A stretch of 64,000 nt of DNA from Baekduia alba (GTDB lineage Bacteria; Actinomycetota; Thermoleophilia; Solirubrobacterales; Solirubrobacteraceae), in NCBI RefSeq assembly GCF_028416635.1, contig NZ_CP114013.1, positions 5,580,001-5,644,000 of the forward strand, written 5' to 3'. Positions 44,944 to 59,435 of this stretch are shown in pieces. A program made the position numbers and the translations under genes. Under the pieces are notes generated by a model. That model made no database searches. It was not told the DNA's origin and was given only the letters and a program-made list of their open reading frames with translations. Position 1 is the first letter of the stretch. Every line of letters begins with the position of its first letter.

Positions 44944-44974
44944 ATATCAACGTCTCTCGGCGACTGTATGTCAA
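44944..44974 (-). promoter_or_regulatory. Promoter of the FAD oxidoreductase gene
   Basis: On the minus strand TTGACA (44974-44969), a 19-base spacer and TGATAT (44949-44944). The spacer is long but both hexamers are good. The palindrome at 44921-44933 falls just downstream of the predicted transcription start. Confidence 0.55.
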
Positions 44975-45045
44975 ACGAACTATCTGCCTTCCGTACAGTA
45001 CGCTCAACTCATCGCTGCCGCGGCCCACCTACGAAGGGAAGAACG

Positions 45046-45951
45046 ATGAGAACGCCGCTGTTCGGCTTCGGCCTGGGCACTGCGCTGCACCAGGTCCCGG
45101 CCCTGCTCGAGCACGTCACGCAGGCCGATGACGCAGGACTCGACCTCGTCAGCCTGTCCGACCACCCTTACGAGCCCGATCGCGTCGACGCCTACGCCGC
45201 GCTCGGCGTCGTTCTCGGCCGCACCACGCGCATCAGCGCCCTGGCGAACGTCACGAACCTGCCGACCCGCCCCGCGCCGATGCTCTCCCGGACCGTCGCC
45301 AGCCTCTCGGCGCTTTCCGGCGGACGCGTGGTCCTCGGCATGGGCGCCGGCGGGCTGTGGGACGCGATCGCCAAGCTCGGCGTCCCACGGCGCACGCCCG
45401 GCGAGTCGGTTCGCGCGCTCGAGGAGGGCATCCAGCTCATCCGGGCCTTGCACGGAGGCGGTGCCCCGGTCGTGTTCGACGGCGAGTTCTACGAGGTCTC
45501 CGGGCTCGAGCCCTCCCCCGTCCCGGTCCCAGCGATCTGGACCGGCTCCAACGGCCCCAAGTCCCTCGCGGTCACCGGACGACTCGCCGACGGCTGGATC
45601 CCCGGCTACGCCGCCGACTGGCTGAGCGAGCGCTTCGCATGGTCGCGCCCGCTCATCGACGAGGCCGCCGTCGCCACCGGACGACAGCCCGCAGACGTCC
45701 AGACGGTCTACAACCTCCCCGGTCGCATCACCGCGACGCCGCTGCAGACGACCCGCGACGATCAGCGCCGCTGGATCGGTGGCTCGCCGGATCAGTGGAT
45801 CGAGGAGCTGACCGGCGCGGTCCTGGAGCACGACGCTGCCGGGTTCATCTACTTCCCGATCCCTGATGGCACTCCGACCGACGTCGCGCTGGGCCGCTGG
45901 GCGACCGAGATCGCGCCCGCCGTCCGCGCAGCGCTCCCGACGGCGCGCTGA
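45046..45951 (+). CDS. LLM class flavin-dependent oxidoreductase
   Basis: A 301-residue luciferase-like monooxygenase fold enzyme using FMN or F420. Blocks: FGFGLGTALHQVPALLEHVT, LDLVSLSDHPYEPDRVDAYA, RISALANVTNLPTRPAPMLS, SGGRVVLGMGAGGLWDAIAK and PAIWTGSNGPKSLAVTGRLA. Substrate unknown. GAAGGGAAG precedes the ATG. It is divergent from the FAD oxidoreductase and next to a convergent marR gene; the three probably form one regulated unit. CCGTACAG (44991-44998) upstream is the reverse of the CTGTACGG motif found in the cluster further right. Confidence 0.88.
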   Translation: MRTPLFGFGLGTALHQVPALLEHVTQADDAGLDLVSLSDHPYEPDRVDAYAALGVVLGRTTRISALANVTNLPTRPAPMLSRTVASLSALSGGRVVLGMGAGGLWDAIAKLGVPRRTPGESVRALEEGIQLIRALHGGGAPVVFDGEFYEVSGLEPSPVPVPAIWTGSNGPKSLAVTGRLADGWIPGYAADWLSERFAWSRPLIDEAAVATGRQPADVQTVYNLPGRITATPLQTTRDDQRRWIGGSPDQWIEELTGAVLEHDAAGFIYFPIPDGTPTDVALGRWATEIAPAVRAALPTAR

Positions 45952-45961
45952 ACGACGCCCG

Positions 45962-46447
45962 CTACGACGCCTCCTCGCCCGTGGACAACGGGCGGCCGTT
46001 GTCGGCGAGGAGATCGACGACGATCTTCGTCAGCCGCGTCGCGCTGGACGGTGCCAACCCGCTGGTCAGCGCGTCGACCTTCGTGGTGACCGCACCATAG
46101 GACTTCATCGCCAGCCGCCGGCCCTTGGGGGTCAGCGCGATCTGGATGGCACGGCGATCCTTCGGGTCGGGCGCGCGCTTGACGAGCTCCCGGCGCTCCA
46201 CCCGGTCCACGAGTCCCGTCATCGTCGAGCGCTCGACGTTGAGCAGCCCGGTCAGCTCGGTCATCCCCATCGGGCGCGGCATCAGCTCGCACAGCAGCTG
46301 GGCCTGCTGCGGCGTCAACCCGTTCGCGCGGCTCGCGTCGGCGAACAGGTGGTCGATGAGATGCGCGAACTGCACCAGCGCATCGGCCAGCCGCAGATCG
46401 CCGCCGCGAACGGCGGCAGTGGTCGTCGGCTCTGTCGTCGCGCTCAT
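45962..46447 (-). CDS. MarR family transcriptional regulator
   Basis: A 161-residue winged-helix repressor. ANGLTPQQAQLLCELMPRPM and MTELTGLLNVERSTMTGLVD form the DNA-binding part (about residues 50-85), followed by the wing RAPDPKDRRAIQIALTPKGR, the family signature. TTGTCG-N18-TACCCT upstream of the ATG gives a leaderless-type promoter, and TCCGTAGTGCGGA next to the -35 suggests autoregulation. Effectors of MarR proteins are often phenolics, which would fit the flavoenzymes beside it. Confidence 0.92.
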   Translation of the reverse strand: MSATTEPTTTAAVRGGDLRLADALVQFAHLIDHLFADASRANGLTPQQAQLLCELMPRPMGMTELTGLLNVERSTMTGLVDRVERRELVKRAPDPKDRRAIQIALTPKGRRLAMKSYGAVTTKVDALTSGLAPSSATRLTKIVVDLLADNGRPLSTGEEAS

Positions 46448-46572: not shown

Positions 46573-47370
46573 CTACTGTGCCGTGAAGCCGCCGTCGAGC
46601 GCGATCGTCGAGCCGGTCATGAAGGCGGACTCGCCAGACAGCAGATAGGCGATCAAGGGTGCGTACTCCTCGGGCTGGCCCATCCGGCTCAGCGGCGTGC
46701 CGGCGGCGATGTGCGCCTTGTCCTCGTCGGTGACGTTCTTGTGCATCGGCGTGTTGATCGAGCCCGGCGCGATGCTGTTGACGCGGACGTGCGGCGCATA
46801 CTCGATGGCCGCCTGGCGCGAGAGCGACTGCAACGCGCCCTTGCTCGACGAGTAGGCCGCCAGATCCTTGAGGCCGACGTTGGCCGCCCCCGAGGTGACG
46901 TTGACGACCGCGCCCGAGCCCTGCGCGAGCAGGTGCGGGATGACGGCCCGCATGCCGAGCATCGGGCCGCGCACGTTGACGGCGTAGACCCAGTCCCAGT
47001 CCTCCAGGGACACCGTGTGGATCGCATCGGGACGGTCGGCCGCCGCCGACAGGACGATCCCCGCCACGTTGGCGAGGCCGTCGATGCGCCCGAACTCGTG
47101 CAGGCAGCCGTCCACGGCCTGCTGCCACGTGGCCGGGTCGTTGACGTCGCCGTCGACGCCGAAGCTGCCGGCGCCCGCGTCGCGCAGCTCCGCGGCCGTC
47201 GCGTCGGCGCCGGTGAGGTCGAGGCACGCGACCGCGGCGCCCTCCTGGGCGAGCCGCCGCGCGGTCGCCTGCCCGAGGCCGCGACCCGCGCCCGTGACGA
47301 TCGCGACCTTGCCGGCGAGGCGTGGCGCGACCCCCGGCATCGTCGCTGCGTTCTGCTTCGTGTCCGACAT
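46573..47370 (-). CDS. SDR family oxidoreductase, downstream of the ABC importer
   Basis: A 265-residue classical SDR: VAIVTGAGRGLGQATARRLA (cofactor motif, residues 23-42), CLDLTGADATA after beta2 (Asp suggests NAD), ANVAGIVLSAA, the catalytic Ser in NVTSGAANVG and YSSSK. It ends ITGSTIALDGGF-like (MTGSTIALDGGFTAQ). It is the last gene of the importer operon; a GCGCGC-GAA-GCGCGC hairpin lies in the 121-base gap before it. Probably oxidises the imported compound. GGAGAGA precedes the ATG. Confidence 0.9.
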   Translation of the reverse strand: MSDTKQNAATMPGVAPRLAGKVAIVTGAGRGLGQATARRLAQEGAAVACLDLTGADATAAELRDAGAGSFGVDGDVNDPATWQQAVDGCLHEFGRIDGLANVAGIVLSAAADRPDAIHTVSLEDWDWVYAVNVRGPMLGMRAVIPHLLAQGSGAVVNVTSGAANVGLKDLAAYSSSKGALQSLSRQAAIEYAPHVRVNSIAPGSINTPMHKNVTDEDKAHIAAGTPLSRMGQPEEYAPLIAYLLSGESAFMTGSTIALDGGFTAQ

Positions 47371-47419
47371 GCTGTTCTCTCCATCCCGCGGTCGTGGCCG
47401 CGCTCGTTTCCTCTGGGCT

Positions 47420-47434
47420 GCGCGCGAAGCGCGC
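47420..47434 (-). other. Intercistronic hairpin in the importer operon
   Basis: GCGCGC-GAA-GCGCGC, a six-base stem with a stable triloop, plus GCCGA-CGA-TCGGC about 30 bases away (47452-47464). They could stabilise or attenuate the mRNA between permease and SDR genes. Confidence 0.45.
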
Positions 47435-47491
47435 TTCAGTCACGTTCTGAGGCCGACGATCGGCTCGCGCGTCCTGGGCCGCGCCCGGACC

Positions 47492-48562
47492 TCAGGTGCC
47501 GACCTCGGACGCGCCCGTGCGGCGGCGGCGGAACTGCGCCGAGACGATGATCGCGATGACGACCGCGGACCCGTTGAACACGTCGGTCACCCACGGACGC
47601 ACGCCGAGCAGCGCGAGGCCGCTCACCGCCGTGCCCACGAAGAACAGGCCGAGGATCGTCCCCGGCACGTTGTACTTGCCGGGATGCCAAGTCGTCGCGC
47701 CGAGGAAGACCGCGGCGAGCGCCGGAACGATGAAGTTGATGCCGCCGACCGACGGGTCGCCGCTTCCGGTCGCGCCAACCTGCAGCACGCCCGCGACGCC
47801 CGCGAGCAGCCCTGAGAGCACGAAGCTCCACATCACCTTGCGTTGCACGTCGACGCCGGTCAGCACCGCGGCGCGCAGGTTGGAGCCGATCGCCGCGAGG
47901 TTGCGACCGTAGGGCGTCTGCGTCAGCAGGAACCAGACGACGACCGCAAACGCCAGCATCACCAGGAACAGCGCCGGCACGCCCAGCACCATCTTCGCGC
48001 TGAAGTCCGTGAGGCGAGGGGACAGGCCACTGCTGATCGGGATGCCGTTGGTGTACGCCGAAACGAGCCCTCCCATGATCGTCGAGGTGCCGAGCGTCGC
48101 GATGATCGAGTTGACGCCGAGGTAGGCGACGATGATCCCGTTGATCGACCCGAGCACCGCGCCGATCGCGAGCGCGACCGCGATCGCCGGGACGAGCGGG
48201 AGGCCGTGCTTGCTCATCGCCGCCGTGCAGGCGATCGAGCAGAGCCCGAGGATCGCGCCGACGGAGACGTCGAAGCGGCCGCTGATAAGCGGCACGATCA
48301 GCGCGAGCGCCGCGACCGCCAGCACCGACTGCGACGTCGCGATCGTCTGCCAGTTCGCGGTCGTGGCGAACGTGTCCGGACGCAGCAGGCTGAACAGCAC
48401 GACCAGCGCGACGAACAGCATGAGCAGGCCGAAGCGCTCGAGCAGCGTCAGGGGATCCCAGCGGCCTTGGCGCCCGGTGCCGGTCCGCTCGCCCGACGAC
48501 CTGCCCGACGGCTCCGCGTCCGCGCTCTCCCTGGTGGGATCGATGCTTGCTGTCGTGGTCAC
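47492..48562 (-). CDS. Sugar-type ABC transporter permease (RbsC-like)
   Basis: A 356-residue membrane subunit of a CUT2/ribose-type importer with about ten helices after a 35-residue cytoplasmic leader. Typical blocks: FDVSVGAILGLCSIACTAAM, IVAYLGVNSIIATLGTSTIM, YGRNLAAIGSNLRAAVLTGV (the EAA-like ATPase contact) and GGINFIVPALAAVFLGATTW. Overlaps the ATPase gene by four bases (ATGA). Confidence 0.93.
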   Translation of the reverse strand: MTTTASIDPTRESADAEPSGRSSGERTGTGRQGRWDPLTLLERFGLLMLFVALVVLFSLLRPDTFATTANWQTIATSQSVLAVAALALIVPLISGRFDVSVGAILGLCSIACTAAMSKHGLPLVPAIAVALAIGAVLGSINGIIVAYLGVNSIIATLGTSTIMGGLVSAYTNGIPISSGLSPRLTDFSAKMVLGVPALFLVMLAFAVVVWFLLTQTPYGRNLAAIGSNLRAAVLTGVDVQRKVMWSFVLSGLLAGVAGVLQVGATGSGDPSVGGINFIVPALAAVFLGATTWHPGKYNVPGTILGLFFVGTAVSGLALLGVRPWVTDVFNGSAVVIAIIVSAQFRRRRTGASEVGT

Positions 48563-50139
48563 GCTGCTTCCTCCTGCGTTGTGAAGACGAGTTCGGTGAG
48601 GCGTTGGCGCGAGAGCTCGTCACCGCGCAGCTCGGCCACCAGCCGCCCGCCGCGCAGGACGAGCACCCGGTCCGACGCGAGCGCGAGCTCTTCGAAGTCG
48701 GACGTCACGAGGATCGCGCCCATGCCGCCCTCGACCGCCCGGCGCACCGAGCGGTAGGCATCTGCGCGCGCCCCGACGTCGACGCCCTGGGTCGGCTCGT
48801 CGAGCAGCAGCAGCCGCGGGTCGCGGCGCAGCCAGCGGGCGAGGATCACCTTCTGCTGGTTGCCGCCCGAGAGCGACGACAGCAGCTCCCCATCGCCGGG
48901 GGTGCGGATCGTGAACTCCTCGATCGAGCGCAGCGCGTCGGCGCGCTCCTGGGCGTGCTGGATGCGCCCGTGCGACTGATAGCGGCCGACCTGCGCGGCC
49001 GACAGGTTCTCGCGGACGGTCATGTCGAGGAAGGCGGCGTCCAGCTCGCGGTCTTCCGGGACGAACGCGATGCCGAGCGCCATCGCGTCCTTCGGGCGAC
49101 CGATGCGCACCTCGTCGCCGCCCAGGCGGATCTGGCCGCCGGCGGGGGCGCGCAGGCCGAACAGCAGCTCCAGCAGCTCGGTGCGGCCCGAGCCGAGCAG
49201 GCCGGCGATGCCGACGACCTCCCCGCGCCCGACCGTGAAGCTCACGTCCTTCAGGCGCTCGCCGTCGCCGAGGCCCTGGACCTGGAGCAGCGTCTCCAGC
49301 GCCTGCTGCTCGGACGGCGGCGAGAAGACCTGCTCCAGCGGCCGCCCGACGATGTGCTCGATCAGCGCCGCCTCGGTGAGGCCCTCGGTCGGACGCGTGA
49401 CGACGTGCTGGCCGTCGCGCAGGACCGTCACCGCGTCGGTGATCGAGAGGACCTCCTCGATGCGGTGGCTGACGTAGAGGATCGTCTGCCCCTGCGCCGC
49501 ATAGCGCCGCAATGCGCTGAGCAGGACGTCGACCTCGTGCTCGGGCAGCGAGGCGGTCGGCTCGTCGAGCACGAGCACCGAGACCGCGCCGCCGTCGCCG
49601 TCCTCGTCCTGCAGAGCGCGCGCGATCGTGACCATCGTCTGGTCCGCCGCCCCCAGCTCGCCGAGCAGGTCGTCGGGATGCGCGTCGATCTCGAAGCGCT
49701 CGAGCAGCGACCGCGTCTCGCGGCGCAGCTGACCCCAGCGGACGCGCCCGAGCCGTGTCGGGAAGCCGCCGCCGATCGCGATGTTCTCGGCGACCGTCAT
49801 GTCGGGGAACGTGGTCGAGCTCTGGTGCACGAAGCGCAGCCCGCACGCGTACGCCAGCTCAGGCGTGGTGGCATCGGAGGCCACGGTGCGCGTGCCGAAT
49901 GCCAGCTCCCCGCCCGCGTCGCCGGCGTGCACGCCGGCGAGGATCTTGATCAGCGTCGACTTGCCCGAGCCGTTGCCGCCGAGCAGCCCGTGGATCTGGC
50001 CCGGAGCGACCGCGAAGCTCACGTCGCACAGCGCCTGCGTTCCCGGGAACGTCTTGGAGAGGCGGCTGACGGTCAGAGCCGCGGTGCGACCCTGACCGTT
50101 CAGCAGAGGAGTCGTCGTCATGGACGTCTCGCTCGTCAT
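48559..50139 (-). CDS. Sugar-type ABC transporter ATPase (RbsA-like, two domains)
   Basis: A 526-residue double ATPase. Domain 1: Walker A GLLGGNGSGKSTLIKIL (53-69), Walker B VLVLDEPTASLPEHE, signature variant LGAADQTMVTIARAL. Domain 2: the usual degenerate P-loop GIAGLLGSGRTELLELLFGL and intact signature LSGGNQQKVILARWL with LLLDEPTQGVDVGARA. This asymmetry is normal for RbsA/XylG proteins. It energises the permease encoded downstream. Confidence 0.95.
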   Translation of the reverse strand: MTSETSMTTTPLLNGQGRTAALTVSRLSKTFPGTQALCDVSFAVAPGQIHGLLGGNGSGKSTLIKILAGVHAGDAGGELAFGTRTVASDATTPELAYACGLRFVHQSSTTFPDMTVAENIAIGGGFPTRLGRVRWGQLRRETRSLLERFEIDAHPDDLLGELGAADQTMVTIARALQDEDGDGGAVSVLVLDEPTASLPEHEVDVLLSALRRYAAQGQTILYVSHRIEEVLSITDAVTVLRDGQHVVTRPTEGLTEAALIEHIVGRPLEQVFSPPSEQQALETLLQVQGLGDGERLKDVSFTVGRGEVVGIAGLLGSGRTELLELLFGLRAPAGGQIRLGGDEVRIGRPKDAMALGIAFVPEDRELDAAFLDMTVRENLSAAQVGRYQSHGRIQHAQERADALRSIEEFTIRTPGDGELLSSLSGGNQQKVILARWLRRDPRLLLLDEPTQGVDVGARADAYRSVRRAVEGGMGAILVTSDFEELALASDRVLVLRGGRLVAELRGDELSRQRLTELVFTTQEEAA

Positions 50140-50154
50140 GGTTCCGATGCCGGC

Positions 50155-51351
50155 CTACTTCGCCGCCGCGGCGGCCCAGGCGTCGGCCCGCAGCTTGCGG
50201 TAGTCGAACGGCACCTGGATCGCGTCGGCGCTCGCCGGCAGGTTGTGCGTGGCGTCGGCGACGACGAAGCCGCCGCCCTCGTTGGGCAGGTCGGCCGCCT
50301 TGACGCCGGAGAGCAGCTGGTTGAGCTGGTCGGCCATCGACCACGTGTCGTAGCCGTAGGGCCAGTACTCCATCGCGGTGACCGTCCCGTCGCGCAGCCA
50401 CTTGACGTCCTCGCCCGAGCCACAGCAGACCACCATGCCGCGGCTCTTGACGGCGTTCAGCGCGCTGCCGAGGCCGAGCGTGATGTACGCGTCGCTGTTG
50501 AAGGCGACGGCCTTCGCGTCGGGGTTGGCCGTGATCGCCGTCTTCCAGATCTGCACGGCCGGGTTCGGCACCTGCGCGTTGGTGAAGCGCACGCGGACCA
50601 GGTCGCAGCTCGGACAGAGGCTCTTGAGCTTCGCCTCGTACGCGTTCCAGTAGGCCTTGTGATGCTCCTGCTCGACCTGCTGGACCATCAGCACCTTGCC
50701 GCTGTGGACCCCGCGCTGCTTGAGCAGGCCGTTGGTGAAGTCGGCTGCCGCCTCGCCGCGCTTGGCGGTGAAGTCGGTGATCTTCTGCGACCCCATGATG
50801 TTGACGCTGGCGCTGAACTCCGGCGTGTCCGGGCAGTCGACGCCGACGTAGTTGACGGTGGGGATGCCGGCGGACTTCGCCGCGAGCAGGCCGCCCTTGA
50901 TCGTCGCGCAGTCGAAGGCCACCGTCGCGATGCCGTCGGCCTTGGCCGCGACCGCCTGGCGGATGCCGGCCGTCGCCTTCGTCGGATCGCCCGCCGAGTC
51001 GAACACGGTCACCTTCCAGCCGAGCAGCTTCGCCGCGGCCTCGAACTCGTCGGAGACCTGCGTGCAGACCGGGAACTTCTGGCCACAGGAGATCATCCAG
51101 ACGTTCTTCCCGCGCACTGGAGCGGGAACGCTCGTCGGGGGCTTCTCGAAGACGCCCTTGTAGTACTTGGCCAGCGTCGCGCTTGCCGCCGCGCCGTCGC
51201 TGGAGCCGGTCGTGCTCGTGCTGCCACCGCTCGGGCTGCTGCCCGACGCGGACGTCGAACTGCCGCCGCACGCGCTGAGCACCTGCGCCGCCGCGAGGCA
51301 GACGGCGAACGCCACCAGCCACGGCCTGTTGCGAGCCATGCGTCGCTTCAT
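50155..51351 (-). CDS. ABC transporter substrate-binding lipoprotein, Cys-rich
   Basis: A 398-residue periplasmic-binding-protein-type lipoprotein. Signal WLVAFAVCLAAAQVLSACGG with lipid-Cys about residue 26, a Ser/Gly/Thr tether, then a type 1 binding fold (KNVWMISCGQKFPVCTQVSD, KATAGIRQAVAAKADGIATV, AVAFNSDAYITLGLGSALNA). Unusually for an RbsB-like protein it has at least eight further Cys (SCGQKFPVC, FDCAT, VDCPD, LCPSC, VVCCG), consistent with several disulfides. GGAGGAGGAG precedes the ATG at 51351. The ligand is not predictable. Promoter with TGTACGG-type operator lies upstream. Confidence 0.92.
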   Translation of the reverse strand: MKRRMARNRPWLVAFAVCLAAAQVLSACGGSSTSASGSSPSGGSTSTTGSSDGAAASATLAKYYKGVFEKPPTSVPAPVRGKNVWMISCGQKFPVCTQVSDEFEAAAKLLGWKVTVFDSAGDPTKATAGIRQAVAAKADGIATVAFDCATIKGGLLAAKSAGIPTVNYVGVDCPDTPEFSASVNIMGSQKITDFTAKRGEAAADFTNGLLKQRGVHSGKVLMVQQVEQEHHKAYWNAYEAKLKSLCPSCDLVRVRFTNAQVPNPAVQIWKTAITANPDAKAVAFNSDAYITLGLGSALNAVKSRGMVVCCGSGEDVKWLRDGTVTAMEYWPYGYDTWSMADQLNQLLSGVKAADLPNEGGGFVVADATHNLPASADAIQVPFDYRKLRADAWAAAAAK

Positions 51352-51459
51352 TGCTCTCCTCCTCCGAGGATGCCGAAGGGGCGCGTCGCACCGGAACCGG
51401 CGCGCGCGTCGGAAGTCCCCCGAACCCGACATCCACACTCTCTCTCCTGGACGACGGGC

Positions 51460-51502
51460 ATCCTCTCACCGTGCCCACGCAGTGTCAAGTTGTACGGCAC
51501 AA
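51460..51502 (-). promoter_or_regulatory. Importer operon promoter with TGTACGG operator
   Basis: On the minus strand TTGACA (51488-51483), a 17-base spacer and GAGGAT (51465-51460). Immediately upstream of the -35 is TTGTACGGCACAA (51490-51502, plus orientation), nearly identical to the element at 57113-57125. A 108-base leader separates the -10 from the ATG. The rest of the gene-free stretch 51352-51636 holds this promoter and the element at 51577. Confidence 0.7.
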
Positions 51503-51576
51503 TTTACCCTCATCGTCCAGCCCGGCTCGTCGTCTGGGCCCGGCTAGCGCTAAAAATGCGAGCACGGCGTGTTCCG

Positions 51577-51597
51577 CTGTACGACGCCACTGTACGA
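51577..51597 (+). promoter_or_regulatory. Tandem CTGTACGA repeats upstream of the SDR gene
   Basis: Two direct CTGTACGA copies (51577-51584, 51590-51597), 13 bases apart, 40 bases before the SDR ATG. The half-site matches that in the two neighbouring operon promoters. Confidence 0.55.
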
Positions 51598-51636
51598 TCA
51601 CTTCGTCTCAGCGCACACGAACAAGGAGGAGTGAGC

Positions 51637-52416
51637 ATGGCGGTTCAACGAGCGGTGATCGTCACGGGCGGCGCGTCGGGCATCGGGCTGGGCGCGGCCC
51701 GCCTGCTCGGCGAGGAGGGTTGGGCCACGGTGCTCGTCGACCGCGACCCCGACGCGCTCGACGTCGCCGTGACCGCCCTGCGCGAGGCCGGCGCGACGGT
51801 TGCCGCCGCGCTCCCCGCCGACATCCGCGAGACCGAGACCGCGGAGCGCGCCGTCGCCGCCGCCGAGGCGCAGGGCCATGAGCTGCGCGGGCTGGTCAAC
51901 GCCGCGGCCGCCGTCTTCCAAGGCTCGCTGTGGGACCTCGACCCCGACGACCTCGACCGCTGCCACGCCGTCAACGTGCGCGGCACCTTCCAGATGATGC
52001 GCGCGGCCGCCCCCGCGATGCGCGCGCACGGCGGCGGCTCGATCGTCAACGTCGGCTCCGGCGACTCGTTCCTCGGCGAGCGCGACCAGCTGGCCTATTG
52101 CACGACGAAGGCGGGCGTGCTGAACATGACCCGCGCCGCCGCGATGGACGCGGCCGACGCCGGCATCCGCGTCAACTGCGTGTGCCCGGGCGTGATCGAC
52201 ACGCCCTTCTTCCGCGCCGGGATCGCCGGCGCGCGGGACCCCGACGGGATCGTCGCGATGGTCGAGGGGCGCCAGCCGCTGGGGCTGCTGGCGCCCGACG
52301 CGGTCGCGCAGGCGATCGCGTTCCTCGTCTCCGACCGCGGCGCCGGCATGACCGGCAGCGCGCTCGTCGTCGACGGCGGGCTCAGCGCGTCGTGGTGGTA
52401 CGAGCGGCGAGCGTGA
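51637..52416 (+). CDS. SDR family oxidoreductase, divergent from the importer operon
   Basis: A 259-residue classical SDR: VIVTGGASGIGLGAARLLGE (residues 7-26), VDRDPDALDV (Asp after beta2 suggests NAD), NAAAAVFQGSLWDLDPDDLD, catalytic Ser in VNVGSGDSFLGE and YCTTK. Ends MTGSALVVDGGLSASWWY. AAGGAGGAG precedes the ATG. The shared intergenic region with the importer operon indicates a linked role in oxidising the imported compound. A hairpin separates it from the convergent aldolase gene. Confidence 0.92.
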   Translation: MAVQRAVIVTGGASGIGLGAARLLGEEGWATVLVDRDPDALDVAVTALREAGATVAAALPADIRETETAERAVAAAEAQGHELRGLVNAAAAVFQGSLWDLDPDDLDRCHAVNVRGTFQMMRAAAPAMRAHGGGSIVNVGSGDSFLGERDQLAYCTTKAGVLNMTRAAAMDAADAGIRVNCVCPGVIDTPFFRAGIAGARDPDGIVAMVEGRQPLGLLAPDAVAQAIAFLVSDRGAGMTGSALVVDGGLSASWWYERRA

Positions 52417-52424
52417 GCCCAGGT

Positions 52425-52456
52425 GCCGCGCGGGTCGCCAGGGCGGCCCGCGCGGC
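52425..52456. terminator. Bidirectional terminator between SDR and aldolase genes
   Basis: Perfect ten-base stem GCCGCGCGGG / CCCGCGCGGC with a 12-base loop in the 53-base gap between convergent stop codons. Confidence 0.75.
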
Positions 52457-52469
52457 GCGGGCGGGCGTC

Positions 52470-53462
52470 TCAGCCCGCCGCGAGAACCCCGCGCACGCTC
52501 GCGCGCGCGCGCTCGGGATCCGGCTCGGCGTCGAGCGCCCAGCCGTACGGCTCGCTCTCGAGGATGCCCATGGCGTCGAGCTCGGCGGCGAGCGCCGCGA
52601 CCTCCTCCGCCGCCAGCGGCAGCACTGGCAGGCGCGTCGGCCCGACCTCGCGGCCCATGATCCCGGCGGCGGCCTTGATCGTCGCCGGATAGCGCGACGT
52701 GAGCAGCAGGAACAGCTGGCCCATCTTCCACTGCAGCTCGCGCGCGCCCTCGAAGTCGCCGGTGGAGGCGGCCTGCCACAGCGCGGTCAGCAGCCGCGGC
52801 GCGACGACGCCGCACGCCGACAGCGAGCCGCAGCCCCCGAGCGCGAGCGCCGGCAACAGGTACTCGACGCCGGCGAAGACCGAGAAGTCCGGTCGCGCGA
52901 CGTGCAGCGCACGCACCATCTCGGTGAACGTCTGCATGTCGTAGTCGGCCTGCTTGGCGCCGAGGTAGTTCGGCAGCCGCTCGACCAGCCGCGTCGCGAC
53001 CTGCGGCGACACGCCGACCCCGAACGCGGCCGGGTAGCTGTAGGTCAGCAGCGCCACGTCGACCGATGAGCCGACCGCGACGAAGTGCTCGTAGAGCCCC
53101 TCGTCGGTCGGGCGCCAGTGGTAGGGCGTCACCGACACGACGCCTTGCGCGCCGACCGACTGCGCGTGCTCTGCCAGCTCCACCGTGTGCTGCGTGCCGG
53201 GCAGGCTGACGTGCGCGATCACCGGGACGCGGCCGGCGGCGACCTCGACGGTCAGCTCCGTCACGCGCCTGCGCTCGTCGGCCGACAGGTTCAGCGACTC
53301 GCCGACGTGCATCAGCGAGCACAGCGCGGGCGCGCCGTTGCCGATCAGGAACTCGACCTCCTGCGCGTAGACCTCCTCGTCGATGCGGCCGGCGGCGTCG
53401 TAGGGCGTCAGCGGCGACCCGAAGTACCCGCGCCACTGGCCTGGGGTGTTGAAGAGTCCCAT
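52470..53462 (-). CDS. DapA-family aldolase/lyase
   Basis: A 330-residue class I (Schiff-base) lyase of the dihydrodipicolinate synthase/N-acetylneuraminate lyase superfamily. The Schiff-base Lys is K170 (NYLGAKQADYD) and the partner Tyr is Y141 (TYSYPAAF). FGSPLTPYD and a GTTGE-like loop changed to MHVGES are seen, so the substrate carboxylate pocket differs from DapA. It lies 22 bases downstream of the molybdenum hydroxylase genes in one operon, far from lysine genes, so a catabolic role on a 2-oxo acid is likely. AGGAGA precedes the ATG. Confidence 0.88.
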   Translation of the reverse strand: MGLFNTPGQWRGYFGSPLTPYDAAGRIDEEVYAQEVEFLIGNGAPALCSLMHVGESLNLSADERRRVTELTVEVAAGRVPVIAHVSLPGTQHTVELAEHAQSVGAQGVVSVTPYHWRPTDEGLYEHFVAVGSSVDVALLTYSYPAAFGVGVSPQVATRLVERLPNYLGAKQADYDMQTFTEMVRALHVARPDFSVFAGVEYLLPALALGGCGSLSACGVVAPRLLTALWQAASTGDFEGARELQWKMGQLFLLLTSRYPATIKAAAGIMGREVGPTRLPVLPLAAEEVAALAAELDAMGILESEPYGWALDAEPDPERARASVRGVLAAG

Positions 53463-53484
53463 GTCCGTTCTCCTGTCGTGTCGT

Positions 53485-55584
53485 TCAGATCAGCTTCGGC
53501 GGCGTGATCGGCAGCTCGCGGATGCGGCGACCGGTGGCGTGGAAGACCGCGTCGATGACCGCGGCCTCGACGCCGGTCGCGCCGACCTCGCCGATCCCCT
53601 TGCCGCCGATCGGGCTCGCGTGGTCGACCTCGGTGACGAAGCCGACGTCGATGTCGGCGGGGATGTCGGCGTTGACCGGGATCGCCACCCCGGCGAGGTT
53701 CTTCGACAGCCAGCGGCCGAGGCGCGGCTCGTGGTGGCTCTGCTCCATCGCCGCCTTGCCCCAGCCCCAGATGATCCCGCCCGTCATCTGCGCGCGGGCC
53801 GTGCGCGGGTTCATGATCCGGCCGACGCTGTAGCGCCCGACCGCGCGGCGCAGGCGCAGCAGGCCGAGCTGCGGGTCGACGCCGACCTCGACGAAGATCG
53901 CGCCGAACGTGCGCATCACGTACGGGCTGTCGGTGGCCGGCGCGAACGAGCCCTCGCCGACGATCTCCGCCCGTCCGCTCGCACGCAGCGCGGCGGCCAC
54001 CTGCTCCGGGCTCGCGTGGTCGCGCACGCCGAGCTGGGCGAGCACGTCGGCCGCGGCGCGCACCACCGCGGCGCCGACGCTCATCGTCGTGGTCGAGCCG
54101 TAGGTCGGCGCCGCCTCGGGCAGCCGCGTATCGCCCATCCGGCACTCGACGCGGGCCGGCTCGACGCCGAGCACCTCCGCGACGAGCTGCGAGACGACCG
54201 TCGAGGTTCCCGTGCCGATGTCCTGGAAGCCACACTCGGCGACGGCGCTGCCGTCGGCTCGCAGCCGCACGCGCGCCTGCGAGCCGGCCTGCGGGGTGCC
54301 GCCGTGCAGGCAGGTGGCCATCCCCTGCCCGACGATCCAGCGGCCGTCGCGGCGCGGCGCGGCGCGCCAGCCGAACGCCCGCGCGCCCTGCTCGTAGCAC
54401 GCGCGCAGCTCCTTCGAGGACCATGGCTTGCCGCTGTCGGGATCGACCTCGGCGTAGTTGCGCAGCCGCAGCTCCAGCGGGTCGACGTCGAGCGTGTGGG
54501 CGAGCTCGTTCATCGCTGCCTCGAGCGGGAAGATCCCGCAGCCCTCCGTCGGCGGGCGCATCGCCGTCGGGAAGTCGACGTTCGCGCGCTGGACGCGTTG
54601 GGTGAGCCGCATCGTGGGTGTGGCGTACGTGGACCTCGTGCCCTCGGTCGCGTACTCGACCCAGTCGTCGAAGACGGCGGTGACGTTGACCGCGTCGTGC
54701 TCGAGCGCGGCGAGCCGGCCCGAGTCGTCGGTCGCCAGCGTGATCGCCTGCACGAGCTGGGACTGGTAGCCGACCATCCCGTACATCTGCGCGCGCGTGA
54801 GCGCGATCCGCACCGGCCGCTCCAGGACGATCGACGCCGCCGCGGTCAGCACCTGGTGGGGCCACACGAAGCCCTTGCAGCCGAAGCCGCCGCCGGTGTG
54901 CGGGGAGCGCACGCGCACCTGCTCGGGCTCGAGCCCGAAGACGCCGCACAGCACCCACTGGACGCCGTAGACGTGCTGGACGGCGTCGACCAGCGTGAGC
55001 ATCCCGTCGCGCCAGTCGGCGAGCGTCGCCGAGGGCTCCATCGGGTTGTGGTGGCGCGCGGGCTGGACGTAGACGCCCTCGTGCACGACCGGCGCCGCGG
55101 CGATCGCGGCGTCCACGTCGCCCTTGACGACCGTCGTCGGGAACCACGTGTAGCTGCTGGCCGGCGGCTCGATCGCGCCGGCGTCGTCGCCGTCGGGATA
55201 CGGCGTGAACGGCGCCGCCTCGATGTCCACGCGCACGAGGCTGGCCGCGTGCTCGGCCGCCTCGAGCGTCTCGGCCAGCACGATCGCGACGGGCTGGCCG
55301 TCGTGGCGGATCCGGTCGTCCTGCATCGGCAGGTGCGCTCCGGCCGAGATGACCGCGGTCGCCTCGCCATAGCGCGGCATGTCCTCGTGCGTGAGCACGG
55401 CCACGACGTCGGGCACCGCGCGGGCGGCGTCTGCGTCGATCGCCCGGACGCGACCGGCCGGCGCGGACGCGGTCACGAACGTGCCGTAGAGCATCCCGTC
55501 GACGCGGTGGTCGGCGGCGAAGCGCGCGCGGCCGGTGACCTTCGCGGGCCCGTCGAGCCGCGCCAGCGGCGTGCCGACGCTCAT
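53485..55584 (-). CDS. Molybdenum hydroxylase large subunit (PaoC/xanthine dehydrogenase family)
   Basis: A 699-residue molybdopterin-binding subunit, the length of PaoC/YagR rather than of xanthine dehydrogenase. RLDGPAKVTGRARFAADHRV opens the protein; the Moco-binding core includes RSPHTGGGFGCKGFVWPHQV and a glycine-rich FQDIGTGTSTVVSQLVAEVL. The catalytic Glu near the C-terminus is in GKGIGEVGATGVEAAVIDAV. It hydroxylates an aldehyde or heterocycle; the FAD subunit type favours an aldehyde. Its ATG overlaps the FAD-subunit stop (ATGA). Confidence 0.93.
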   Translation of the reverse strand: MSVGTPLARLDGPAKVTGRARFAADHRVDGMLYGTFVTASAPAGRVRAIDADAARAVPDVVAVLTHEDMPRYGEATAVISAGAHLPMQDDRIRHDGQPVAIVLAETLEAAEHAASLVRVDIEAAPFTPYPDGDDAGAIEPPASSYTWFPTTVVKGDVDAAIAAAPVVHEGVYVQPARHHNPMEPSATLADWRDGMLTLVDAVQHVYGVQWVLCGVFGLEPEQVRVRSPHTGGGFGCKGFVWPHQVLTAAASIVLERPVRIALTRAQMYGMVGYQSQLVQAITLATDDSGRLAALEHDAVNVTAVFDDWVEYATEGTRSTYATPTMRLTQRVQRANVDFPTAMRPPTEGCGIFPLEAAMNELAHTLDVDPLELRLRNYAEVDPDSGKPWSSKELRACYEQGARAFGWRAAPRRDGRWIVGQGMATCLHGGTPQAGSQARVRLRADGSAVAECGFQDIGTGTSTVVSQLVAEVLGVEPARVECRMGDTRLPEAAPTYGSTTTMSVGAAVVRAAADVLAQLGVRDHASPEQVAAALRASGRAEIVGEGSFAPATDSPYVMRTFGAIFVEVGVDPQLGLLRLRRAVGRYSVGRIMNPRTARAQMTGGIIWGWGKAAMEQSHHEPRLGRWLSKNLAGVAIPVNADIPADIDVGFVTEVDHASPIGGKGIGEVGATGVEAAVIDAVFHATGRRIRELPITPPKLI

Positions 55585-56573
55585 GCGACCCGCTCCTCCA
55601 GGCCGGCCGCGATCCGCAGCGCGCGCAGCGCCGCGTTGCGCGCGAGCGGGATCTTGTAGCCGTTCTGCGCGAGCGGACGCGCGTCGGCGAGCGCGACCTC
55701 GAGCGCCACCTCGACCTCCGGCGCGTCGGGGGCCAGCCCGACGAGCGTCTGCTCGGCGCTGTCCAGCCTCCATGGACGCATCGCGACCGATCCAAGCGCG
55801 ACGCGCGCGTGGCGGATCGTCCCGCCGTCGAGCGCGAGCGCGACGCCGGCGGAGACCAGCGCGTACTCGTAGGACTGGCGCTCGCGCACCTTGACGTAGG
55901 CCGACGCGGGCGCCGGCGCGGGCAGCTCGAGCGCGACGATCAGCTCGCCGGGCGCGAGCACGCTGTCGGCGACCGCCTCGGTCGGCAGCACGTGGAAGTC
56001 GCGGACGGGGATCGTGCGCCCGCCGTCGGGGCCGGCGACGACGACGCGCGCGTCGAGCGCGGCCAGCGCGACCGCCGGGTCCGACGGGTGCGTGGCGATG
56101 CACGCCTCGCTCCAGCCGAAGATCGCGTGGTTGGCGTTGAAGCCCTCGTGCGCGCTGCAGCCCGAACCCGGCGCGCGGCGGTTGCAGGCCACGGGGTCCT
56201 CCGACCGGAAGTAGGGGCAGCGCGTCTTCTGCAGCAGGTTGCCGCCAAGCGTCGCGCGGTTGCGGATCTGCGCCGAGGCCGACAGGTGGATCGCCTCGCG
56301 CAGCACCGGCCATCCTTCCGCCACGCGCGCGTCGGCCGCGGCGTCGTGGAGCGTGACGGCGGCGCCGATCCGCAGGCCGCCGTCGGGCAGCGGCGCGATC
56401 CGTGCGAGCTCCGGGATGCGGCTGACGTCGAGCAGCCGGTCGGGGGCCACGACGCCGAGCCGCAGCCAGTTCAGCAGCTCCGTGCCGCCCGCGAGGAGCG
56501 TCGTGCCCTCGACGGCGGCGTCGGCGACCGCGTCGGCGACGCGCTCGGCGCGGGCGTAGGCGAGCGGCCGCAT
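55581..56573 (-). CDS. Molybdenum hydroxylase FAD subunit with [4Fe-4S] insertion (PaoB-like)
   Basis: A 330-residue FAD-binding subunit. FAD motifs are TTLLAGGTELLNWLRLG and IRNRATLGGNLLQ. Directly after comes KTRCPYFRSEDPVACNRRAP then GSGCSAHEG and SEACIATHP: Cys119, 130, 139 and 158. This four-Cys insertion binds an extra [4Fe-4S] cluster in PaoB and in the beta subunit of 4-hydroxybenzoyl-CoA reductase, and is missing from ordinary xanthine dehydrogenases. Coupled to both neighbours by overlapping stop/start codons. Confidence 0.93.
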   Translation of the reverse strand: MRPLAYARAERVADAVADAAVEGTTLLAGGTELLNWLRLGVVAPDRLLDVSRIPELARIAPLPDGGLRIGAAVTLHDAAADARVAEGWPVLREAIHLSASAQIRNRATLGGNLLQKTRCPYFRSEDPVACNRRAPGSGCSAHEGFNANHAIFGWSEACIATHPSDPAVALAALDARVVVAGPDGGRTIPVRDFHVLPTEAVADSVLAPGELIVALELPAPAPASAYVKVRERQSYEYALVSAGVALALDGGTIRHARVALGSVAMRPWRLDSAEQTLVGLAPDAPEVEVALEVALADARPLAQNGYKIPLARNAALRALRIAAGLEERVA

Positions 56574-57070
56574 CAGGCGTGCGCGGCCGCAGCCTGCACG
56601 GCCTCGACGATCTGCGGGTAGGCGCTGCAGCGGCAGAGGTTCCCGCTCATCCACTCGCGGATCTCGGCGGCCGAGCCGGCGTGGCCCTCGGCGATGCAGG
56701 CCACCGCCGAGATCACCTGACCCGGGGTGCAGTAGCCGCACTGGAAGGCGTCGTGGTCGATGAACGCCTGCTGCACCGGGTGCAGCGCGTCGCCGTCGGC
56801 GAGCCCCTCGACGGTCGTGACCTCGCGGCCGTCGGTGCTCGCGGCCAACACCAGGCACCCGTTGACGCGTTGCCCGTCGAGCAGCACCGTACAGGCGCCG
56901 CACTCGCCGCGGTTGCAACCCTTCTTCGCGCCGGTCAGGTCGAGCCGCTCGCGCAGCAGGTCGAGCAGCGTCGTGCGCGCGTCCACGCCAGCGAGCACCT
57001 GGCGCTCGCCGTTGACGTGCAGCACCAGTTCCTGCTGCTCGGCGAAGGCGTGGGAGGTCGTCGAGGGCAT
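56573..57070 (-). CDS. Molybdenum hydroxylase [2Fe-2S] subunit (PaoA-like)
   Basis: A 165-residue iron-sulfur subunit with a plant-type cluster (KGCNRGECGACTVLLDGQRV, NGCLVL) and the second, helical cluster domain (QCGYCTPGQVISAVA ... GNLCRCSAYPQIVEAV). It lacks the Tat signal of E. coli PaoA, so the enzyme should be cytoplasmic. The start at 57070 is seven bases after the -10 TAACCT. First gene of the operon, followed by FAD subunit (TGATG overlap), Mo subunit and aldolase. Confidence 0.94.
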   Translation of the reverse strand: MPSTTSHAFAEQQELVLHVNGERQVLAGVDARTTLLDLLRERLDLTGAKKGCNRGECGACTVLLDGQRVNGCLVLAASTDGREVTTVEGLADGDALHPVQQAFIDHDAFQCGYCTPGQVISAVACIAEGHAGSAAEIREWMSGNLCRCSAYPQIVEAVQAAAAHA

Positions 57071-57077
57071 GGCTTCC

Positions 57078-57106
57078 AGGTTACGGTCGGGCGCCCAAGG
57101 TGTCAA
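57078..57106 (-). promoter_or_regulatory. Promoter of the molybdenum hydroxylase operon
   Basis: On the minus strand consensus TTGACA (57106-57101), a 17-base spacer and TAACCT (57083-57078), seven bases before the ATG, giving a leaderless transcript. The TGTACGG element sits just upstream of the -35. Confidence 0.8.
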
Positions 57107-57112
57107 GCAATG

Positions 57113-57125
57113 CTGTACGGTGCAA
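57113..57125. promoter_or_regulatory. TGTACGG operator between hydroxylase operon and quinone oxidoreductase
   Basis: CTGTACGGTGCAA, matching TTGTACGGCACAA at 51490-51502 in 10 of 13 positions, with the same placement upstream of a TTGACA box. It could serve both divergent genes. Confidence 0.6.
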
Positions 57126-57179
57126 ACCCGAATTGGACAACGCGTTCGCCGTCGCGGCGGAGCAAAGGAGCGACCAGTG

Positions 57180-58190
57180 ATGAAGGCTGCCTTCTACGAC
57201 GCTGTCGGCGGCACCGACGTGCTGCGCCTGGGCGAGCTGCCCGAGCCGCAGCCGGAGCCGGGCGAGGTGCGGGTGCGGATCGCCGCGAGCGGGATCAACC
57301 CGGTCGACATCAAGCGCCGTCGCGGCCGCACGCTCCATCGCGCGGGAGCGCGTCCGGTGCAGCTGTTCGACCGCACGATCCCGCACGACGACGGCGCCGG
57401 CACGATCGACGCCGTCGGCGAGGGCGTCGACCCGGCACGCGTCGGCGAGCGCGTGTGGGTGCGGATGGCGCAGACGCTCGGTCGTCCGTTCGGCACCGCC
57501 GCGCAGTGGTGCTGCGTGCCCGCCGCGTTCGCGGTGACGCTGCCCGAGACCGTCGCGCTGCACGAAGGCGCGGCGCTCGGCGTCAACGCGGTCACCGCCC
57601 ACTACGCCGTCCACTGCGACGGTCCGCTGCGCGAGGACGCGACGGTCGTCGTGCAGGGGGCGACGAGCGGTGTCGGCCGCTATGCCGTGCAGCTCGCGCG
57701 CGAGGCCGGCGCGACGGTGATCGCCACGGCCGGCAGCGAGGGCAACCGCGAGCTGGCGAGCAAGCTCGGCGCCCACCACGTCTTCGACCACCAGGATCCG
57801 GACCTCGTCGCCAAGGTGCGCGAGCTGACCGGCGGACGGGGCGTCGACGTCGTCGTGGAGGTCGAGTTCGGGATCAACTGGGCCAACGACGCCGAGATGC
57901 TCGCCGAGGACGCGGCGATCTCGGTGTTCGGCAGCGACCGCAAGCTCGAGTTCGAGTTCGAGCCTTACGCGCTCTGCGCCGGCAACCACCGCGTGCACTT
58001 CATCGGCGTTTACTGGATCGCGCAGGCCGCGGCGCAGGCCGCGGTCGACGACATCGGCCGGATGCTCGCCGAGGGCCGGCTCGAGAACCTCGTCACGGAG
58101 CGGCTGCCGCTCGACCGGATCGCCGAGGCGCACGACCGCACCGAGAAGCCCTCCGCCACCGCCGTCAAGGTCGTGCTCGACGTCGACTGA
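57180..58190 (+). CDS. Zinc-independent quinone oxidoreductase (MDR superfamily)
   Basis: A 336-residue NAD(P)H-dependent medium-chain reductase. MKAAFYDAVGGTDVLRLGEL opens the GroES-like domain; the cofactor domain has TVVVQGATSGVGRYAVQLAR (residues 157-176). The zinc-ligand Cys/His set of alcohol dehydrogenases is missing, as in QOR/zeta-crystallin. AAAGGAG precedes the ATG. Divergent from the molybdenum hydroxylase operon with a shared TGTACGG element, so it probably acts in the same pathway. It converges on the acyl-CoA dehydrogenase gene, 12 bases away. Confidence 0.9.
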   Translation: MKAAFYDAVGGTDVLRLGELPEPQPEPGEVRVRIAASGINPVDIKRRRGRTLHRAGARPVQLFDRTIPHDDGAGTIDAVGEGVDPARVGERVWVRMAQTLGRPFGTAAQWCCVPAAFAVTLPETVALHEGAALGVNAVTAHYAVHCDGPLREDATVVVQGATSGVGRYAVQLAREAGATVIATAGSEGNRELASKLGAHHVFDHQDPDLVAKVRELTGGRGVDVVVEVEFGINWANDAEMLAEDAAISVFGSDRKLEFEFEPYALCAGNHRVHFIGVYWIAQAAAQAAVDDIGRMLAEGRLENLVTERLPLDRIAEAHDRTEKPSATAVKVVLDVD

Positions 58191-58202: not shown

Positions 58203-59435
58203 CTACGCCGGCTCACCGACGTAGCGGCAGCTCGCGGCGCGCAGGTGCGGGCTGAGCGTCTCGTCGTCGGGCAGCCGCGCGGCGATCTTCTGCAGCATCA
58301 CCTGGTTGGTGGCGGCGGCGGGATGGAAGAGCGTGGCGGCGTCGCGGAAGAACTTCTCCACCGGGTACTCCTCGGTCACGCCGTAGCCGCCGAAGACCTG
58401 GATCGCGCGCCGCGTCACCTCGGCGGCCATCTCGGTCGCATGGACCTTCGCCATCATGCCGAGCAGGCTGACCATGCCGCCGGGGTCGGGCGTCGTGCAC
58501 GAGCGCCAGACGAGCGTCCGCGCCGCCTCGAGCCCGATCGCCATCTCCGCCAGCAGCGCCGCGACCTGCGGGTGCTCGATGATCGGCCTGCCGCCCTGCA
58601 CGCGCCAGCGAGCGCGGGCGAGCGCCGCCTCGTAGGCACCGCGGGCCACGCCGATCGCCTGCGCGGCGCCGAGCGCCGGGTTGCTGTGGATGCCCAACGA
58701 GGCAGCGCCGTCATGGGCGCCGAAGCGGTTGCCGGCCGGGATCACGCAGTCCTCGAAGATCAGCTCGGCGTTGGTCGCGAGCCGCTGGCCGAGCTTGTCG
58801 TAGACGTGGCCGACGCGCAGGCCGGGCGTGTCGTGGGGCACGAGGAACCAGCTCGTGCCCTGCCGCGGCGCCACGCTCGGATCGGTGCGCGCCCAGATGA
58901 AGTAGTAGCGCGCGACGCCGCCGCTGGTGATCAGCGTCTTGCGTCCGTTGAGGCGGTAGCGGTCGCCCTCGCGGACCGCCGTCGTGTGCGGCCCGCCCTC
59001 GACGCCGTCGTAGGGCAACGAGTGGTCCGAGCCGGTCTCGGGCTCCGTCATGGCGCCGGCCAGGACGCAGCGCGGGTTCTCCAACAGCTCCGGCAGGAAG
59101 CGCGCGCGCTGCGCGTCGGTGGCGACGACGTTGAACAGCTCGGTGTAGACGAACTGCGCGCGGAGCACCTGCGCGATCCCCATGTCGCCGGCCGAGAGCT
59201 CCTCGAGCACCAGCGCCTGCGCCAGCTCGTCGGCGCCGCCGCCGCCGTGCTCGGTGCGCAGCGTGAGGGTCAGCAGGCCCTCGGCGGCGGCGGCCTCGAC
59301 GATGTCCCACGGGAAGCGCGCCAGCGGGTCGCGCCGCTTCTCGCGCTCCGTCGCCTTGGGGCGGACCTCGCGCTCGACGAAGGCGCGCACGCGCTCGCGC
59401 AGCTCGACGTGGCCCTGTGGCAGCGTGAGGTCCAT
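58203..59435 (-). CDS. Acyl-CoA dehydrogenase
   Basis: A 410-residue FAD enzyme introducing a 2,3-double bond into an acyl-CoA. Blocks: GAMTEPETGSDHS (FAD/substrate loop), LNGRKTLITSGGVARYYFIW, AIGVARGAYEAALARARWRV and the C-terminal IQVFGGYGVTEEYPVEKFFR. Catalytic Glu is probably the one in this C-terminal region. It follows the 2-oxoacid oxidoreductase with a one-base overlap (TGATG), so its substrate should be the acyl-CoA made by that enzyme. Confidence 0.93.
   Translation of the reverse strand: MDLTLPQGHVELRERVRAFVEREVRPKATEREKRRDPLARFPWDIVEAAAAEGLLTLTLRTEHGGGGADELAQALVLEELSAGDMGIAQVLRAQFVYTELFNVVATDAQRARFLPELLENPRCVLAGAMTEPETGSDHSLPYDGVEGGPHTTAVREGDRYRLNGRKTLITSGGVARYYFIWARTDPSVAPRQGTSWFLVPHDTPGLRVGHVYDKLGQRLATNAELIFEDCVIPAGNRFGAHDGAASLGIHSNPALGAAQAIGVARGAYEAALARARWRVQGGRPIIEHPQVAALLAEMAIGLEAARTLVWRSCTTPDPGGMVSLLGMMAKVHATEMAAEVTRRAIQVFGGYGVTEEYPVEKFFRDAATLFHPAAATNQVMLQKIAARLPDDETLSPHLRAASCRYVGEPA

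Follow-up and report, generated by a model that had tools for sequence, protein, structure and literature searches.

The ten genes at positions 46573-58190 of the window analysed here, a 64,000-nucleotide stretch of Baekduia alba DNA (bases 5580001-5644000 of a single-contig genome of 5.86 Mb), appear to be a lineage-specific patchwork of catabolic genes with no sign of a conserved regulon. With moderate confidence, we propose that this patchwork comprises one unit in which an ATP-binding cassette (ABC) importer and a short-chain dehydrogenase (SDR1) would serve an aromatic or cyclic compound, and a second unit in which a DapA-type lyase and a molybdenum hydroxylase would produce and oxidise an aldehyde, with no conserved regulon spanning the two. 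Every part belongs to a known family, and the combination was seen only at this locus among the genomes compared. The initial annotation of the window had read the same genes as a single regulon built around a sugar-type importer, possibly an undescribed oxidative route for a sugar-like or aldehyde-forming compound.

The distribution of the two operons argues against such a regulon. We searched 151 genomes of the order with three anchors, namely the binding protein of the importer (E 1e-40), the molybdenum subunit of the hydroxylase (E 1e-130) and the DapA-type protein (E 1e-60); here and in our other genome searches, only the best first-look candidates of each genome were scored. The three anchors were found in 9, 7 and 1 genomes, respectively, only the B. 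alba genome itself appeared in more than one of the three lists, and four other genomes of the genus had none of the anchors at these thresholds. Twenty hydroxylase loci, six from the order and 14 from 13 genomes of a phylum search, keep the gene for the FAD subunit, and that for the iron-sulfur (FeS) subunit too where the contig reaches it, with SDR relatives at four of them. Neither an importer nor a DapA relative was found at any of the 20 (tblastn, E 1e-5), although four of these contigs (L035, L058, L062 and L064) are under 7.2 kb, which makes the absence of a neighbour there weak evidence. Conversely, no hydroxylase or DapA relative was found beside the eight order-level importer relatives. 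Among 19 distinct importer contigs (those eight plus 14 named loci from a collection scan, minus two duplicates and one fragment), a molybdenum hydroxylase relative occurs on one, L079, and is of another type, with a molybdenum subunit nearest to glyceraldehyde-dehydrogenase and CO-dehydrogenase models and not to PaoC. A 29% DapA relative lies 7.8 kb away at L072. Since importer and hydroxylase operons rarely co-occur, which is the observation that the initial annotation had itself named as decisive against its proposal, the single regulon is not supported.

All ten genes are intact open frames, placed as first listed, and Pfam and NCBIfam agree with the enzyme classes originally named: two SDRs, a CUT2-type permease, a double ABC ATPase, a Peripla_BP_4 protein and a PF00701 lyase, together with a three-subunit enzyme of the xanthine oxidase family that is nearest to PaoABC and a PIG3-like quinone oxidoreductase (QOR). 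The GC content at third codon positions is 0.94-0.97 across all ten, in line with coding sequence in DNA of 73% GC. Where three transcription units had been counted, gene spacing suggests four, in two divergent pairs. Unit 1, on the minus strand, runs from the binding protein through the ATPase and the permease to SDR1 and is divergent from SDR2 (unit 2, plus strand); unit 3, also on the minus strand, runs from the FeS subunit through the FAD subunit and the molybdopterin subunit (MoL) to the DapA-type gene and is divergent from the QOR gene (unit 4, plus strand). The divergent pairs are separated by intergenic regions at 51352-51636 and 57071-57179, respectively, and SDR2 is convergent with the DapA-type gene.

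Within the importer operon, the genes for the substrate-binding protein (50155-51351, minus strand; Pfam Peripla_BP_4, 76 bits) and the CUT2-type double ABC ATPase (48559-50139, minus strand; two ABC_tran stretches) are 15 bp apart, the ATPase gene overlaps that of the CUT2-type permease (47492-48562, minus strand, GTG start; BPD_transp_2, 1e-35) by 4 bp, and a 121 bp gap separates the permease gene from SDR1 (46573-47370, minus strand, 265 aa; adh_short_C2, 2e-58). The tandem ABC ATPase, single BPD_transp_2 permease and Peripla_BP_4 binding protein make up the CUT2 architecture (Pfam), which the importer shares with those of the ribose, xylose and arabinose type. In contrast to these sugar importers, all three components score far under the curated NCBIfam cut-offs of known sugar importers; the ATPase is nearest to AraG/RbsA models, and the binding protein matches RbsB/XylF weakly, its best PDB sequence match (ribose binders) having an E of about 1e-4. 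An AlphaFold model of the binding protein, of moderate confidence (mean predicted local distance difference test, pLDDT, 68.5) and used for fold family only, has a ribose-binding-type fold. By reading, Cys28 lies in a lipobox-like stretch, and the protein is probably a lipoprotein. The genome encodes one remote paralogue (27% identity), and when a tight binding-protein profile was run against 396 genomes of the phylum (E 1e-60), no second member emerged.

The sugar label is weakened by what adjoins the closest relatives of this importer, which come from Celeribacter (L070), Salipiger (L071), a Rhizobium metagenome-assembled genome (L072), Amycolatopsis (L073) and one order-level genome (L023), with identities of 37-41% for the binding protein and 54-64% for the permease. 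L070, L071 and L072 have a block in common (L070:5034-14606; L071:5066-14557; L072:5003-14564) in which the importer is accompanied by an iron alcohol dehydrogenase, an ApbA-type reductase, an amidohydrolase and an intradiol ring-cleavage dioxygenase, as well as, by reading, a LysR-type gene. Families were assigned by hidden Markov models in L070, with counterparts in the other two at 62-95% identity (amidohydrolase 82-95%, intradiol dioxygenase 72-85%), and the block looks like an uncharacterised ring-catabolism cluster. With amidohydrolase and ring-cleaving dioxygenase genes grouped with the importer in three of its closest relatives, we think it likelier that the substrate is aromatic or cyclic, perhaps containing nitrogen, than that it is a sugar. 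Among the other relatives, L023 adjoins a PRK08204-type amidohydrolase, L073 has a FAD_binding_3 monooxygenase 3.7 kb from the importer, L024/L075 has a StyA-related monooxygenase, and a more distant relative (30%) on a Streptomyces plasmid adjoins an annotated cupin protein, fumarylacetoacetate hydrolase and maleylpyruvate isomerase, a gentisate-like set.

We also pooled 131 neighbours from the 19 importer loci, taking up to seven genes of at least 150 aa per locus within 6.5 kb from a simple gene caller and dropping frames with unknown residues; a few of the pooled frames are probably spurious. L075 and L077, whose contigs have the same lengths as those of L024 and L028, were counted as duplicates of these (L075 and L024 also share an identical flanking protein), L083 was excluded because its binding protein matched over a short stretch only, and the plasmid loci L036 and L037, which have no hydroxylase or DapA relative, were examined outside the pool. 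Amidohydrolases and SDRs were the commonest neighbours (seven each), followed by TetR (six), MFS (five) and polysaccharide-deacetylase-type proteins (four), the one of these that was checked (L079) being allantoinase-like, and no sugar kinase or isomerase was found among the best 25 of the 132 families. This survey displaced a sugar-specific importer as the leading reading. L079 (L079:1-16384, Bradyrhizobiaceae) itself combines the importer family, adjoined by an SDR, with its molybdenum hydroxylase, a QOR 42% identical to the B. alba protein (P0010), an isochorismatase-family hydrolase, a 2OG-Fe oxygenase and the allantoinase-like deacetylase. At locus L029, binding-protein matches alone were seen, with no ATPase or permease relative found. 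A precedent by description comes from Rhodococcus sp. AH-ZY2: according to the accessible part of PMC13188901, phthalate-ester degradation falls when a CUT2-family binding protein is knocked out, and the importer concerned (4497-4499), assigned to CUT2 by its authors, has the same order of binding protein, ATPase and permease and a binding protein with low similarity to known binders; that part of the paper mentions no hydroxylase-aldolase operon.

Judged from the sequence, the hydroxylase-aldolase operon is the most coherent unit of the locus, and its internal linkage is the only one that the sequence itself supports. The genes for the [2Fe-2S] subunit (PaoA-like; 56573-57070, minus strand; NCBIfam PaoA, 205 bits), the FAD subunit (PaoB-like; 55581-56573, minus strand; PDB 5g5g_B, 7e-67) and MoL (nearest PaoC; 53485-55584, minus strand; NCBIfam PaoC, 501 bits; PDB 5y6q_C, 4e-124) overlap by 1-4 bp, and the DapA-type gene (52470-53462, minus strand; Pfam DHDPS, 4e-57) comes last after a 22 bp gap, in keeping with its original assignment to this operon. 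The three subunits carry the MoCoBD, FAD_binding_5/CO_deh_flav_C and Fer2/Fer2_2 domains of the PaoABC-type set, as do E. coli PaoABC (PDB 5g5g) and the aldehyde oxidase 5y6q. The FAD subunit has the four cysteines of the PaoB loop, which we take to be [4Fe-4S] ligands, aligned with PaoB (5g5g_B) and 5y6q_B, and the GE(V/L)G motif, whose glutamate is presumably catalytic as in the hydroxylase family, aligns in the large subunit as well. Aldehyde oxidation is the predicted activity of this enzyme; its scores are far below the NCBIfam equivalog cut-offs (PaoA, 205 versus 322 bits; PaoC, 501 versus 1180 bits). Because the FeS subunit (P0009) is without the N-terminal extension of PaoA, its match beginning at profile position 45 of 218, the enzyme is probably cytosolic. 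It differs from E. coli PaoABC in this respect, in having a PF00701 lyase attached and in that no XdhC/PaoD-type gene was found among the ten genes in the Pfam and NCBIfam scan; there are five XdhC loci elsewhere in the genome, of which the nearest is some 17 kb past the end of the ten genes.

The DapA-type protein (P0006) falls within PF00701 (4e-57). Lys170, which we take to be the Schiff-base lysine, and Tyr141, presumably the catalytic tyrosine, are invariant across this protein, its four PF00701 paralogues in the genome (29-32% identity) and the L072 relative. In contrast to DapA and other PF00701 lyases, it has MHVGE in place of GTTGE, presumably the carboxylate-binding motif, the second Tyr of PYY is His, and the Arg after YNxP is lost. 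It scores 165.8 bits where the dapA cut-off is 206.15, and on this score and the motif changes we reject a lysine-biosynthesis DapA; one of the paralogues (L003) passes that cut-off. Searches of 150 other order genomes (E 1e-60) and 395 other phylum genomes (1e-55) yielded no relative, nor did a pattern scan of an 84,980-species collection, for which the short peptide patterns were judged likely to miss distant relatives; in a plasmid collection, identities reached 33.5% among the 20 matches listed. The AlphaFold model is mediocre (pLDDT 57.3) and served for fold family only. Within present sampling the protein is an orphan, with no relative from which a substrate could be carried over.

The succession of a Schiff-base lyase and an aldehyde oxidoreductase in one operon suggests that an aldehyde is released and then oxidised to an acid. 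PF00701 also contains hydratase-aldolases, and a sharper form of our proposal, compatible with it, would make the DapA-type protein one of the NahE/PhdJ kind, releasing an aromatic aldehyde and pyruvate, with the PaoABC-like enzyme oxidising the aldehyde. The pairing of lyase and hydroxylase in one operon would suit this, as would the oxidation of benzaldehyde by PaoABC given in the accessible part of PMC4287710. We consider it improbable in this specific form: no hydratase-aldolase is among the best 60 of 147 PDB matches of the protein or among the NCBIfam families listed for it, the carboxylate-binding motif is altered, and the ten genes include no ring-dihydroxylating or extradiol gene.

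In the broader proposal that we prefer, the importer operon would bring in a small compound that is aromatic or otherwise cyclic rather than a sugar, and SDR1 would oxidise or reduce it. The DapA-type lyase would split a carbonyl substrate, and the aldehyde released would be oxidised to a carboxylate by the PaoABC-like enzyme. The carboxylate could then enter a ring-cleavage route encoded elsewhere in the genome, where there are four Dioxygenase_C (intradiol dioxygenase-family) matches by which an aromatic acid could be consumed; two of these are adjacent, in what may be the arrangement of protocatechuate 3,4-dioxygenase. We infer the substrate class, the coupling of lyase and hydroxylase, and any link between the two units.

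Regarding such a link, the region between the importer operon and SDR2 (51352-51636) contains a near-palindrome, TTGTACGGCACAA, at 51490-51502, with AAGGAGGAG just upstream of SDR2 (51637-52416, plus strand, 259 aa; adh_short_C2, 8e-54), and the region between the molybdenum operon and the QOR gene (57071-57179) contains a poorer, partially palindromic copy, CTGTACGGTGCAA, at 57113-57125. The consensus TTGTACSGTACAA, built after the sites were seen, occurs four times in the genome with up to two mismatches; two of the sites are these divergent promoters and, by reading, one overlaps a coding region and one lies between MarR-like and MFS-like genes elsewhere in the genome (L039:1501-1513, 2 mismatches). 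A reversed control pattern gave the same genome count. The observed joint palindrome score was reached by 65 of 300 shuffles at lengths 11-18 and by 41 of 300 at length 13, ungapped matches of 16 and 20 bases are at shuffle level, and an equally enriched shared hexamer arose in 85 of 500 shuffles (TGTACG itself at 4 copies in 0 of 1000). At the same stringency, 23 loci of importer relatives, including two duplicates, gave no match to the consensus, and scans found no promoters (0.2 expected) and one terminator-like site (2.5 expected). A shared operator is possible, given a palindrome in both promoters, but the palindrome does not exceed shuffled controls. A candidate local regulator is the MarR-family protein (45962-46447, minus strand; Pfam MarR, 1e-10), whose gene follows SDR1 in the same orientation after 125 bp. 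In a bolder version, the DapA-type protein would represent an orphan clade with a rebuilt carboxylate pocket that passes its aldehyde to the co-transcribed cytosolic PaoABC-like enzyme, a cyclic substrate other than a sugar would enter through the CUT2-derived importer, and both promoters would be controlled by one palindrome-binding regulator, possibly this MarR protein; we give this full combination little credence.

An alternative view is that the molybdenum operon serves general aldehyde detoxification, the importer belongs to another pathway and their adjacency is accidental. The hydroxylase core without an importer at 20 of 20 loci and a promoter motif not above shuffles both favour it, and E. 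coli PaoABC is described as an aldehyde detoxification enzyme in the accessible part of PMC3958847. Such accidental adjacency would leave the DapA-type gene inside the molybdenum operon to be accounted for, as well as the location of two of the genome's four palindrome sites in these intergenic regions. Linked functions are, moreover, commonly laid out in this way, as two divergent pairs within 12 kb, and we regard unrelated neighbours as a serious though rather unlikely alternative.

For SDR1, SDR2 and the QOR (57180-58190, plus strand), family matches allow no substrate assignment. SDR1 is under the cut-offs of the 25 NCBIfam families listed, by only 2.4 bits in the case of PRK07231, a broad subfamily that bears the label glucose 1-dehydrogenase; the QOR, a member of the medium-chain dehydrogenase family, scores 158 bits with NCBIfam quinone_pig3 (cut-off 297). 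Just outside the cluster, an F420-dependent LLM-class oxidoreductase gene (44968-45951, true start probably 45046) converges with the MarR gene. On the other side (58203-63814) lie an acyl-CoA dehydrogenase gene and then a long frame with C-terminal POR domain and DUF6537 matches, which by reading resembles indolepyruvate ferredoxin oxidoreductase.

Several findings weigh against our proposal. L070, L071 and L072 are closely alike and may count as a single case, and relatives at about 39% identity need not share a substrate with the B. alba importer, whose binding protein has ribose- and arabinose-type binders as its nearest solved structures. Sugar-type neighbours do occur, all beside distant importer relatives of about 30% identity: a LacI regulator and GH15 at L028/L077, an SMP-30/gluconolactonase-family gene at L078 and a member of the mandelate-racemase/muconate-cycloisomerase (MR_MLE) family, an enolase-family gene, at L081. 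The altered carboxylate-binding motif means that pyruvate-releasing chemistry is not assured for the DapA-type protein, and the palindrome in both divergent promoters allows co-regulation.

Some of these findings would suit a single regulon for a nonphosphorylative sugar or sugar-acid route, with CUT2 import, SDR oxidation, dehydration by an unlinked IlvD/Edd enzyme, DapA-type cleavage and molybdenum-dependent aldehyde oxidation. Archaea provide a precedent in which 2-keto-3-deoxygluconate aldolase is followed by a molybdenum glyceraldehyde oxidoreductase, and besides the CUT2 family, the ribose-binding-type fold and the neighbours of the three distant relatives, this route could draw on the closeness of SDR1 to a glucose 1-dehydrogenase label. 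The lack of a dehydratase, remarked on in the initial annotation and borne out by our scan of the ten genes, does not exclude it, given that the genome has three IlvD/Edd-family genes at other loci. Nevertheless, we find this route distinctly unlikely: the ten genes also include no kinase, lactonase or LacI-type regulator, the binding protein is distant from sugar binders, the block beside the closest importer relatives is of ring-cleavage type, the linkage of importer and hydroxylase is not conserved, and the DapA-type protein is far below the NCBIfam cut-offs of the sugar-acid aldolase and dehydratase models.

In summary, there is little support for a regulon or a new route of sugar catabolism at this locus. 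For a new lyase activity, the DapA-type orphan offers a concrete candidate, with a partner enzyme that points to an aldehyde product. Furthermore, should the importer prove to carry ring compounds, the automatic label ‘sugar ABC transporter’ would be misleading for this actinobacterial and alphaproteobacterial group of binding proteins.

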